From positions 1 through 59,108 of the forward strand of contig JAFYHU010000031.1 of the NCBI GenBank assembly GCA_017538965.1: 59,108 nucleotides of DNA, read 5' to 3'. Source of the DNA: Oscillospiraceae bacterium. GTDB lineage: Bacteria; Bacillota; Clostridia; Oscillospirales; Oscillospiraceae. The translations under genes and the position numbers were made by a program. Of the stretch, positions 20,020 to 39,953 are shown in pieces. Below the pieces are notes generated by a model. It was given only the letters and a program-made list of their open reading frames with translations. It did not search any database and was not told where the DNA came from. Position 1 is the stretch's first letter; each line of letters starts with the position of its first letter.

Positions 20020-20122
20020 CTTTCTGCAATTACGCGGTTTTTCAGCTTGGTGCTCGCATGTACCTTATCCCGCCGCGTTTTCTTGTTTTGAGTATTTCTC
20101 GGTGGGCGTTCCGGGAGCACAT
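20020..20122 (-). repeat. R1 repeat copy upstream of dnaA
   Basis: Minus-strand copy with ACGCGG...CCGCGT arms (a coordinated change from the usual GCGCGG...CCGCGC), a degenerate ATGCGAGCA loop and the tail AATTGCAGAAAGCTG. Farther 5' it has GTGCTCCCGGAA, resembling the start of the long form. It faces another copy in opposite orientation at 20160. Confidence 0.7.
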
Positions 20123-20159
20123 CTGTAGCCAAAGCGGTACGAGCCTCCCTAATAAAAAA

Positions 20160-20223
20160 GCGCGGCGGAGAAACCTTGGTGCGAGGGATCGGTTTCTCTT
20201 CCGCGCAATGGCAGGGACCTGTA
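20160..20223 (+). repeat. R1 repeat copy after mscL
   Basis: Plus-strand copy with arms GCGCGGCGGAGAAACC and GGTTTCTCTTCCGCGC around a loop holding GTGCGAGGGA, then AATGGCAG. Just ahead, 20121-20138 resembles part of module M (TGTAGCCAAAGCGG). The element lies in the gap between mscL and dnaA, antisense to both genes. Confidence 0.75.
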
Positions 20224-22148: not shown

Positions 22149-22177
22149 ACTACGCCGAGGTTACCATCCCCCATAAA

Positions 22178-22232
22178 ACGCGGCGGGGAAAGGTTCGTGC
22201 GAGGGACAGGTTCGTATTCCGCGTAATTGCAG
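22178..22232 (+). repeat. R1 repeat copy between serS and parB
   Basis: Arms ACGCGGCGGGGAAA and ATTCCGCGT, with loop GTGCGAGGGA and tail AATTGCAG. The outer pair is A-T rather than G-C, a coordinated change. It lies 30 bases after the empty R2 palindrome. Confidence 0.75.
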
Positions 22233-22260
22233 GCGGCTTCGAACGGGCAAATTGCCCCGT

Positions 22261-23964: not shown

Positions 23965-23980
23965 TGTTTCACGTGAAACA
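23965..23980. promoter_or_regulatory. parS site 1
   Basis: The perfect 16-bp palindrome TGTTTCACGTGAAACA, matching the bacterial parS consensus. It abuts the parA -35 box. Confidence 0.97.
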
Positions 23981-24000: not shown

Positions 24001-24016
24001 TGTTTCACGTGAAACA
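24001..24016. promoter_or_regulatory. parS site 2
   Basis: A second exact TGTTTCACGTGAAACA, 36 bp centre to centre from site 1. Confidence 0.97.
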
Positions 24017-24085: not shown

Positions 24086-24224
24086 CTCCGCTCCGGCGGA
24101 GACCTCATCCGGCCTCACTTCGCTCAGCCACCTTTCGGGTTGCGATCACAGATCGCTTCCCGCTTTGGCTACAAACGTGCCCCCGGCACGTTTGCTTAAC
24201 GCGTCGCGCCTCAAAGGGGAAGGC
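24086..24224. repeat. R3 repeat carrying module M in its loop
   Basis: Starts with the hairpin CTCCGCTCCGGCGGAG and ACCTCATCCG, then CCACCTT. The copy ends in AAAGGGGAAGGCT. Where other R3 copies have only a short loop between CCTTCCCC and GGGGAAGG, this one holds the 75-bp module M (24135-24209), which contains GCGATCACAGATCGC and AAACGTGCC...GGCACGTTT hairpins. It ends 80 bases before the DUF559 gene. Confidence 0.75.
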
Positions 24225-24303
24225 TAAAATGAGCCGATTTCAGCTGGACGTTCTTCCTATGGTATGATATAAAGATATGGGAAAACCTACGGAGGTTTGA
24301 TGA

Positions 24304-24660
24304 ATGGCCATCTATTATTCAGAGAAGAATAAACCTCTTGCTCAAGAGCTTCGCAGAAACATGACCCGACAGGAAAGACATCTGTGGTATGATTTTCTGT
24401 CAACTTATCCCGTTCAATTTCGACGACAAAAGCAGTTAGGACGATATATAGTTGATTTCTACTGCAGTAAGGCGAAGCTTGTCATAGAACTTGACGGAAG
24501 CCAACACTTTTCTGAGGAAGGCCGTGAGTATGATGCAGAAAGAGATGCCTATCTGAAAGGTATGGATCTGCTGATCTTCAGAATTCCGAACAATGATATA
24601 GACCAGAATTTTATTGGTGTCTGCGATAGAATTGATGCGCTTGTAAAAGAGAGGTTATAA
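24304..24660 (+). CDS. DUF559 (Vsr-like) endonuclease-fold protein, copy 1
   Basis: A 118-residue protein of the DUF559 family, related to the very-short-patch repair nuclease fold (PD-(D/E)XK-like). Visible family features are NMTRQERHLWYDFLSTYP, FRRQKQLGRYIVDFYC with the first likely catalytic Asp, VIELDGSQHF with the second acidic position, and LLIFRIPNNDI. An ACGGAGG ribosome site and a TATGATATAA box lie just upstream. The gene is flanked by R3 palindromic repeats on both sides and sits between parS sites 2 and 3. A second, divergent copy lies at 39594. Biochemical activity is unknown; a role in mobilising or maintaining the repeats is inference. Confidence 0.85.
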   Translation: MAIYYSEKNKPLAQELRRNMTRQERHLWYDFLSTYPVQFRRQKQLGRYIVDFYCSKAKLVIELDGSQHFSEEGREYDAERDAYLKGMDLLIFRIPNNDIDQNFIGVCDRIDALVKERL

Positions 24661-24674
24661 CTATCTGCAACCAC

Positions 24675-24730
24675 CAAAGCCTTCCCCTCTGGGGAAGGTG
24701 CCCCAGTGCGTACACTGGGGCGGATGAGGT
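24675..24730. repeat. R3 repeat, 15 bases after DUF559 copy 1
   Basis: Hairpin CCTTCCCC-tct-GGGGAAGG, then a second hairpin GCCCCAGTG-cgta-CACTGGGGC, then GGATGAGGT. The middle hairpin has a sequence unlike that of other copies but is perfectly self-complementary. Confidence 0.8.
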
Positions 24731-24812
24731 CTCTCGTAAAGTAGGCCTCTGTTGCGGTGGAGCTACTATTTTCATCTGTTGGCAAGACAACGCCGAAAAA
24801 GAAGATAGAAAA

Positions 24813-24892
24813 GTCCGCTGCGGCGGGGACCTCATCCGTCATCCGGCTTGCGGGAGACGCCGGATGCCACCTTCCCCAGAGGGGAAGGCTTT
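24813..24892. repeat. R3 repeat in inverted orientation
   Basis: GTCCGCTGCGGCGGGGAC and CTCATCCGT, a hairpin CATCCGGC...GCCGGATG, then CACCTTCCCC-aga-GGGGAAGGCTTT. It faces the copy at 24675 in reverse and ends 11 bases before parS site 3. Confidence 0.8.
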
Positions 24893-24902
24893 ATTTCAAA
24901 AA

Positions 24903-24918
24903 TGTTTCACGTGAAACA
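24903..24918. promoter_or_regulatory. parS site 3
   Basis: A third exact TGTTTCACGTGAAACA. It is separated from sites 1-2 by the 0.9-kb DUF559/R3 segment. Confidence 0.97.
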
Positions 24919-39305: not shown

Positions 39306-39372
39306 AACCTCATCCGTCTTTGCCCTCGCGGGGGATCGGGCAAAGCCACCTTCCCCTAAAGGGGAAGGCAAG
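39306..39372. repeat. R3 repeat after the pilin gene
   Basis: ACCTCATCCGT, hairpin CTTTGCCC...GGGCAAAG (39318-39345), then CACCTTCCCC-taaa-GGGGAAGGC. The middle hairpin shares no sequence with those of the other copies but pairs perfectly. Confidence 0.8.
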
Positions 39373-39492
39373 AAAGGGTGCGCGGTGAACGTACAGTGCT
39401 CTAAAGGGGAAGGCAAGAAGGGATGTGCGATGATCATACTCTCCCTTAAAGGGGAAGGCAAGAGGGGACGTGCGGTGATCGTGCCTTCCCCT
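39356..39492. repeat. three tandem ~45-bp units built on the R3 end
   Basis: TAAAGGGGAAGGCAAGA begins three consecutive units, each followed by a similar GGGYGTGCGRTGATCRTRC-type stretch. The last runs into the next R3 copy. It looks like local amplification of one R3 arm. Confidence 0.75.
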
Positions 39493-39575
39493 TTAGGGGA
39501 AGGTGGCATCCGGCGTCTCACGTCGACGCGCAGCTAGTTCCTTGGGAAAGCCGGATGACGGATGAGGTTCTCCAG
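39483..39575. repeat. R3 repeat abutting DUF559 copy 2
   Basis: GCCTTCCCC-ttta-GGGGAAGGTGG, a hairpin CATCCGGC...GCCGGATG with a 36-base loop, then GGATGAGGTTCTCC. The repeat ends about 20 bases before the GTG start of the nuclease gene. Confidence 0.8.
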
Positions 39576-39593: not shown

Positions 39594-39953
39594 GTGGTTC
39601 CGATCCGCTATGAAAAGAAAAACAAAAAGAACGCCCAGAACCTGCGGAAAAACATGACGCAGGAGGAACGGGCGCTGTGGTATCGTTTTCTGAAGACATA
39701 TCCGCATCAATTTCGGCGGCAAAAGCAATTCGGCAGATACATTGCCGATTTTTACTGTGCAGAGGCAATGCTTGTGGTCGAAATAGACGGAAGTCAACAT
39801 TACACGGACGAAGGAAAGGATTACGACAGGGAACGGACGGCATATCTGGAGGGACTTGGACTCCGCATACTAAGAATTCCCAATCGGGATGTCAATGAAC
39901 GGTTTCGAGCTGTCTGCGAGGAAATTGACAGCGTTGTAAAGGAAAGATGCTGA
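39594..39953 (+). CDS. DUF559 (Vsr-like) endonuclease-fold protein, copy 2
   Basis: A 119-residue homologue of the protein at 24304. It keeps NMTQEERALWYRFLKTYP, FRRQKQFGRYIADFYC, VVEIDGSQHY and LRILRIPNRDV, so both acidic positions expected for the nuclease fold are intact. I chose a GTG start (VVPIRYEKK). It follows a perfect AAAGGAGG site and aligns with the start of copy 1. An in-frame ATG 39 bases upstream lies inside the R3 repeat and would add 13 unrelated residues. The gene is followed directly by the remnant of an LPXTG gene. Function unknown. Confidence 0.85.
   Translation: MVPIRYEKKNKKNAQNLRKNMTQEERALWYRFLKTYPHQFRRQKQFGRYIADFYCAEAMLVVEIDGSQHYTDEGKDYDRERTAYLEGLGLRILRIPNRDVNERFRAVCEEIDSVVKERC

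Follow-up and report, generated by a model that had tools for sequence, protein, structure and literature searches.

In the REP/REPIN-RAYT systems, named for repetitive extragenic palindromic (REP) sequences and REP-associated tyrosine transposases (RAYTs), enzyme lineages are matched to their own repeat type, and copy number is tied to the presence of the enzyme. REP tags are GTAG or CGTC (PMC3733652). Another repeat class, BoxC/PIT/TM-ECO, has been described as a class II intrastrand triplex repeat with 3610 copies in 262 proteobacterial genomes (Holder et al. 2015, PMC4666352). BoxC of strain K-12 comprises two types, paired in inverted orientation in 5 of 5 close pairs; the TM-ECO triplex has been studied by circular dichroism and nuclear magnetic resonance; and its authors report that mobility activities were never found beside these repeats (PMC4666352). 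DUF559 proteins, for their part, are known as Vsr-like or EDxHD-type nucleases (PMC12907096, PMC9403480). Here we consider a stretch of 59,108 nucleotides from an Oscillospiraceae bacterium (contig JAFYHU010000031.1; "the window" is this whole stretch), in which a DUF559 gene is wrapped in palindromic repeats, termed R3. A preliminary description suspected a link between protein and repeats from their co-location. That link is real and general: it is seen in the proximity of gene and repeat, in the dependence of repeat copy number on the gene, and in the matching of protein lineage to repeat type, and it is accompanied by a rule that couples arm and tail of each repeat, by two end types, and by dispersed doublets.

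Gene and repeats in the window and across genomes

The two DUF559 genes of the window and their repeats are as follows (end types are defined below).
24304 to 24660, + strand: DUF559 (PF04480) gene for a Vsr-like nuclease of 118 residues, from an open reading frame (ORF) and a Pfam match (E = 1.1e-28)
24086 to 24226, - strand: left R3 element, C-type; about 70 bp interrupt its first stem-loop; tail GGATGAGG
24676 to 24732, + strand: middle R3 element, C-type; stem 1 CCTTCCCC-GGGGAAGG; hairpin B GCCCCAGTG..CACTGGGGC; tail GGATGAGG
24810 to 24892, - strand: right R3 element, C-type; hairpin B arms GCATCCGGC and GCCGGATG; tail GGATGAGG
39594 to 39953, + strand: second DUF559 gene, from the genome search for DUF559
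39483 to 39570, + strand: R3 element, C-type, directly upstream of the second DUF559 gene
39306 to 39371, - strand: additional R3 element, C-type, upstream of the second DUF559 gene

These coordinates bear out the earlier picture of a 118-residue DUF559 gene bounded by one R3 element on its left and by two, in opposite orientations, on its right. The 25-nt stem stretches of the middle and right elements are 100% mutually complementary, and DNA folding of the middle element gives -21.4 kcal/mol (z -6.4), with 0 of 200 shuffles equally good. The first report of gene and repeat together "in two places" was right and even understated, as all three DUF559 genes found in the genome (E <= 0.01) adjoin such repeats. 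The third gene, on another contig (C2:15528), is embedded in a different, analogous palindrome family (GCTCCCTC..GAGGGAGC).

Across genomes, 148 DUF559 loci were collected: 79 found by protein similarity alone (the distinct loci among the best 80 matches from a scan of one genome per species, 84,980 species), 30 from 200 genomes of the family, 3 from this genome, and 36 chosen by place; the set leaves out family-survey matches that were partial, at contig ends, or not retrieved. Linked loci belong, among others, to Gemmiger formicilis and Eubacterium coprostanoligenes. An element, by a looser definition than that of the composites below, lies within 500 bp of the gene at 144 of the 148 loci, and on both sides at 84, compared with 60 and 5, respectively, of 314 control genes. 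The check proposed at the outset, whether DUF559 genes adjoin repeats beyond chance, is thus answered in the affirmative for this clade. GC-rich hairpins show the same focus, at 10.45 per kb within 100 bp of the gene versus 0.38-0.85 per kb at 1-6 kb (112 loci). Tandem two-hairpin composites occur within 400 bp at 92 of 109 loci (both sides at 49) versus 46 of 353 ORFs serving as controls on the same contigs (both sides at 4), and in 123 of the 196 gaps next to DUF559 versus 30 of 322 other gaps on the same contigs. These control ORFs and gaps rule out chance co-location in a gene-poor strip. The degenerate motif CTYCCYYN{3,5}RRGGRAGSTG, finally, has a copy no more than 500 bp from the gene in 87 of 112 cases, against 0.09 per kb elsewhere in those loci.

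Genome counts of this motif, which was chosen on 112 of the DUF559 loci and whose gene-adjacent copies are included, depend on the presence of the gene. Of the 200 family genomes, 58 contain DUF559 and 142 do not; the median is 13 copies (mean 29.3) in the former and 0 (mean 3.2) in the latter (p = 6e-15), many of these genomes being fragmented drafts and neither elements nor genomes being independent by descent. In the 32 genera that include both kinds of genome, DUF559-positive genomes are higher in 25, equal in 4, and lower in 3. A control pattern, the motif read backwards, has 93 matches versus 2156 for the motif itself. For 61 genomes of the window's own genus, in which there are up to 209 motif matches per genome, the medians are 28.5 in 32 positives and 1 in 29 negatives (p = 2e-6). 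Equal abundance of R3 in genomes lacking DUF559, a possibility raised by the preliminary description, is therefore not what the counts give, exceptions in both directions (see below) notwithstanding.

Gene and repeat are also matched in kind. A stem-arm class was assigned for 130 loci, and in 78 of 127 cases a gene shares its class with the nearest DUF559 at no more than 70% identity (shuffled mean 20.2, maximum 38). For genomes that hold several DUF559 genes with differing arms, the nearest foreign relative shares the arm in 22 of 26 cases. CTTCCCC elements have a median of 19 in 10 genomes with a CTTCCCC-type DUF559 versus 0 in 31 genomes (p = 1.7e-4), and CTCCCTT elements a median of 8 with the cognate DUF559 versus 0 without it (p = 2.3e-3).

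The window's first DUF559 gene has three parS sites as its context.
23965 to 23980, no strand assigned: parS site 1
24001 to 24016, no strand assigned: parS site 2
24903 to 24918, no strand assigned: parS site 3

As first described, the block of gene and R3 elements falls between sites 2 and 3, the former ending at 24016 and the latter starting at 24903. The same parA-rpsT site measures 334 bp in the nearest relative (ParA 83% identical) versus 1202 bp in the window, and no DUF559 match and no repeat motif were found in that interval of the relative's draft genome (57% complete). The position at parS is probably incidental, because 0 of 26 parA loci of relatives (two with less than 400 bp of flank) had a DUF559 match; one of them (L259) holds a copy of the repeat motif without a DUF559 match. 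A base-exact border of the window block could not be drawn against relative L234, as the alignment is too scattered from parS to the rpsT promoter. In several relatives from the genus (L235, L236, and L244), the parA-rpsT interval is about 0.8-1 kb longer than in the window's nearest relative.

What interrupts the left R3 element is an insert several tens of bp long, nested in the first stem-loop and with palindromes of its own (about 24136-24210), and similar interruptions of the stem-loop are found in other genomes (L225, L232, and L100, in the last case downstream of the gene). Another dispersed repeat, of about 58 bp and present in both orientations, occupies 20024-20081, 20157-20215, and 22175-22233 of the window (76-80% alike); a stretch that looks similar by eye adjoins the third DUF559 gene (L003, about 1113-1171).

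Structure of the element and its gene-less units

The element is about 55-85 nt long and consists, in order, of a pyrimidine arm, a short loop, a purine arm (the two arms forming stem 1), TG, a variable hairpin (hairpin B), and a purine-rich tail. Read in the same direction as the 5' arm, and not antiparallel to it, the tail spells the arm's complement, as in the pairs CTCCCTC with GAGGGAG, CTCTCCC with GAGAGGG, CCCCCTT with GGGGGAT, and CTCCCCT with GAGGGGT. Elements (394, each required to have hairpin B) were taken from DUF559 loci, four stretches of the window's genome, and doublet loci. The rule that C is answered by G and T by A or T was scored on tail letters 3-8 of 352 of them, letters 1-2 being omitted because the tail patterns fix them; 19 elements that lack such a tail and 23 whose stems are shorter than 8 were dropped. 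Of the letters scored, 94.6% fit versus 67.1% when shuffled (reached by 0 of 2000 shuffles). A stricter rule, T answered by A alone, gives 83.4% versus 61.5%, and when each of 25 distinct arms is given a single consensus tail, the fit is 96.7% versus 58.4%. Watson-Crick pairing of arm and tail as guide and target, a model known from IS200/IS605, was rejected, as the antiparallel order fits 42-53%, under the shuffled means.

A purine-motif third strand runs antiparallel to the purine strand and forms the triplets G.GC and A(T).AT (PMC4666352), and same-order complementarity to the pyrimidine strand is what such a strand requires. The sequences of the elements have the makeup of a class II triplex, with a pyrimidine (Y) arm, a purine (R) arm, and a third strand that follows purine-motif rules. 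They do not match the BoxC/PIT/TM-ECO consensus CCCTCNCCCN3-6GGGNGAGGGN3GGGNGAGGG, with its 3-nt second loop; their stems differ and their second loop is a hairpin. Judged by sequence, the element in the form of single-stranded DNA could refold into a putative intrastrand purine-motif triplex in which hairpin B would be the spacer.

There are two end types. C-type elements have the outer stem pair C:G and the tail letter G, and G-type elements have the outer pair G:C and the tail letter T, T being the usual third-strand choice opposite such an inverted pair. Outer pair and tail letter 1 are coupled in 317 of 320 elements, the letter being unreadable in 74 of the 394. Since the tail is coupled to the arm and two end types exist, a plain palindrome or terminator was rejected as the whole story. 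A known RNA family was likewise rejected, Rfam (E <= 0.1, four loci) giving a match to mir-198 alone, far under the gathering score, and so was a defence function, for which PADLOC gave partial matches only (22-27 bits).

Hairpin B varies yet stays complementary within genome G097 (14 copies, 11 distinct). There, 97.0% of the stem cells of both stems pair versus 87.3% when shuffled, 13 cells are changed on both sides versus 4.2, and the covariation score is 0.233 versus 0.065; these three of the five measures exceed the shuffles (0 of 500 in each case). By eye, certain hairpin B modules (CACGGCGAAGCCGTG, GCTCGCGAAGCGAG, and CCAGTGTGCGCACTGG) recur with different stem-1 families and in different genomes (loci L064-L232), as if hairpin B were swapped as a block.

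The commonest gene-bearing layout is an element, DUF559, and an inverted element, with tails inward: where both flanks hold elements, the tails of the nearest ones face the gene at 52 of 84 loci and point outward, as in the window, at 11. The closest downstream element is in inverted orientation at 26 of the 148 loci, with a stem that starts two nt past the stop codon, so the reading frame must end inside the tail and hairpin B of the element. One gene-bearing unit (in G022) is 454 bp long, with little room beyond the DUF559 gene. Gene-less inverted C/G doublets are scattered as units of about 100-160 bp, and some copies of the element stand alone. Among gene-less doublets with tails inward, 35 of 41 pair a C-type with a G-type element (p = 2e-6 if independent), in a set that includes loci chosen by motif and many pairs from genomes picked for their doublets. 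Three genomes have doublets at 19 of 24 loci, and these are on average 84-89% alike. Their farther flanks, compared after skipping 35 bp on each side that are partly conserved in some sets, have an identity of 0.52-0.64 versus 0.56 at random, the left flank in G097 (0.64) being somewhat above random. Such dispersal bears at most indirectly on a putative mobilization by the enzyme. No target-site duplication was seen by eye in the doublets displayed, and no matched pair of occupied and empty element was found. At locus L293 (G165, contig 136), the contig starts with a cut DUF559 gene, behind which lie two inverted units, about 140 and 220 bp long, with tails inward.

Escherichia coli ycjD and the described systems

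The K-12 genome contains a DUF559 gene, ycjD (1351407-1351760, minus strand). A BoxC element, the only strict BoxC match in the 25 kb examined, lies 167 bp past the end of ycjD, and the ycjD stop codon is inside a degenerate BoxC-like element, a position where Clostridia also have an element. The gene is present in 3365 of 5426 E. coli genomes. In an even sample (60 of 5393 records), the median number of BoxC-like places is 17 (11-25) in 37 ycjD-positive rows, from which the gene's own locus was subtracted, versus 4 (1-16) in 23 ycjD-negative rows (p = 1.7e-9); places are called BoxC-like because the displayed matches fall on that part of the query, not from individual inspection. The sole row named O157:H7 is ycjD-negative with 12 places. 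Together, ycjD and BoxC/PIT look like a proteobacterial branch of the same enzyme-repeat partnership. A clean empty site was not found in the eight ycjD-negative records inspected (L297-L304), which have efflux genes, either a TetR regulator with an RND adaptor or MFS with outer-membrane parts, next to fabI or sapF instead. The fabI-sapF locus of E. coli thus seems to have two alternative contents.

Like BoxC/PIT/TM-ECO, the clostridial elements are intergenic, run from Y arm through loop, R arm, and spacer to third strand, come as two types in inverted pairs (5 of 5 A+B there, 35 of 41 C/G here), and swing widely in copy number between close relatives. Unlike it, they have a whole variable hairpin in place of a 3-nt spacer (TTA or CCG) and many stem families rather than one; they would escape a triplex search that allows loops of 1-6 nt only. 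The absence of mobility functions nearby, as stated by the authors of that class, is a further difference, yet the K-12 elements adjoin or overlap ycjD.

With REP/REPIN-RAYT, the elements share the form of short palindromic intergenic sequences, often inverted doublets, flanking a single enzyme gene. Here too, with exceptions, the enzyme gene is flanked by its own repeats and repeat number depends on the enzyme. The enzyme, however, is DUF559, of PD-(D/E)XK or Vsr fold, and not a Y1 HUH protein (TnpA-REP), and the element has a second variable hairpin and a tail obeying triplex rules, not a GTAG or CGTC tag. Because both enzyme fold and element structure differ, we file the system as a new kind. 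The comparison with REPIN/RAYT, made in the preliminary description with the proviso of a different protein family, is apt as logic and not as homology (Pfam DUF559, E = 1.1e-28); by this analogy, the DUF559/repeat pair can be called a second REPIN-like system.

The DUF559 protein shares its fold with EDxHD homing endonucleases and Vsr (fold matches are 3hrl, I-Bth0305I, and Vsr) as well as their conserved acidic and His residues: all 77 DUF559 sequences compared agree at D51, D64, H68, and further residues of catalytic type. It differs from I-Bth0305I and Vsr in being tied to dispersed DNA repeats. The units also resemble insertion sequences and their miniature inverted-repeat transposable elements, as a gene-bearing unit coexists with shorter gene-less units that have the same inverted C/G ends. 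They differ in the little room beyond the DUF559 gene and in their hairpin and triplex-type ends, and by eye no target duplication was seen. No paper joining DUF559 or ycjD to palindromic or triplex repeats was found in the available portions of the open-licence PMC literature, which is no proof of absence. The two halves, the nuclease type and the triplex repeat class, are each known on their own.

Interpretation and rival readings

We consider it fairly probable that the gene and its repeats form a two-component system of the RAYT/REPIN kind. In such a system, the DUF559 protein, of Vsr or EDxHD homing endonuclease type, would recognize and nick the folded cognate element, and nicking would lead to copying or movement of the element, with labor split as between RAYT and REPIN. 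Recognition and nicking of a folded element would be the simplest account of association, copy number, matching, and the arm/tail rule. Spread of the elements through nicking, as RAYTs are thought to spread REPINs, is a less certain step that we infer.

Several observations weigh against this interpretation. Copy number has exceptions on both sides: at least 10 copies are present in 14 of the 142 DUF559-negative family genomes and in 7 of the 29 negatives of the genus, and 15 of the 58 family positives have no more than 2 copies, 6 of the 32 genus positives no more than 3. Two of the three doublet genomes (G097 and G153) have no DUF559 match in the family survey. At no more than 60% identity the arm match drops to 37 of 127, barely over the largest shuffle (35), and for each arm class 6 of 31 non-cognate genomes hold 8 or more copies, in a test that covers the 41 of 58 genomes that could be labeled. 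Physical linkage alone could make a gene and its adjacent repeats co-inherit. Regarding the element, R3 itself violates the arm/tail rule at one position (C over A at tail letter 6), triplex folding is a prediction, and two measures of hairpin B in G097 stay within the shuffles, namely pairs changed on both sides (4 versus 2.6 shuffled, reached by 71 of 500) and further pair types (reached by 270 of 500). No transposition event, target duplication, or exact element end is in evidence, and the single empty site, the parA-rpsT interval of the nearest relative, is without base-exact borders. The window copy is non-canonical, with tails directed away from the gene and all its elements C-type, and is probably an old or rearranged one. 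The motif was found at 0 of 16 DUF559 loci of other Bacillota families (up to 1.5 kb searched; the two closest in sequence, L260 and L261, lie near contig ends), and linkage of all DUF559 genes to repeats is therefore rejected. For E. coli, both K-12 elements are 3' of ycjD, with none seen on the other side and one alone fitting strict BoxC, clonal descent confounds the ycjD/BoxC contrast, and the locus in ycjD-negative strains is occupied by efflux genes rather than being an empty site.

Six genomes (G187, G122, G092, G097, G498, and G501) have 29-78 motif copies and no DUF559 match. Motif-rich genomes of this kind possibly reflect remnants after loss of the gene, draft gaps, or a distant enzyme.

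The main rival is homing into existing elements, whereby the repeats spread by other means, the nuclease cuts gene-less elements, and repair copies the gene into them, so that the gene needs the repeats and not vice versa. We regard this as unlikely, for it gives no reason to expect repeat counts to follow the gene, be it from genome to genome or inside a genus, or to expect a genome-wide excess of cognate repeats where the cognate gene is present. Because cognate repeats are commoner genome-wide, not just next to the gene, their abundance argues, more weakly, for action in trans. Less likely still is host housekeeping, in which a Vsr-like repair or structure-specific enzyme resolves folded repeats, repeat-rich genomes keep it, and repeats place or regulate its gene. 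This leaves unexplained the adjacency at 144 of 148 loci, the arm-by-arm matching of several DUF559 copies per genome, and the inverted element two nt past the stop codon at 26 of 148 loci. That the elements are bidirectional terminators or intergenic insulators, with DUF559 a passenger in repeat-rich gaps, is very improbable: by eye, stem 1 often has A and T runs at its borders, and terminator-like stretches precede some solo copies, but composites are rare in other gaps (30 of 322, versus 123 of 196 next to DUF559), and neither an arm-matched tail nor two coupled end types would be needed.

Beyond the two-component interpretation that we favor, we propose tentatively, as something possible rather than probable, that the partner so far missing for intrastrand-triplex repeats may be DUF559 throughout the bacteria, from the BoxC/PIT of E. 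coli to the repeats of Clostridia. The enzyme would read the triplex in single-stranded DNA, with the third strand as the specificity code, and would spread the elements in a manner unlike that of any known transposase family.

If the two-component reading is true, it would provide a function for the large DUF559 family, a partner for BoxC/PIT/TM-ECO, a repeat class described without mobility functions nearby, and an independent second example of a REPIN/RAYT-like lifestyle. Base triplets can be predicted from the readable code that links arm to tail, so that what triplex DNA does in living cells would become open to direct test. With up to 209 motif matches in genomes of the window's genus, such a system would also bear on how these genomes change.
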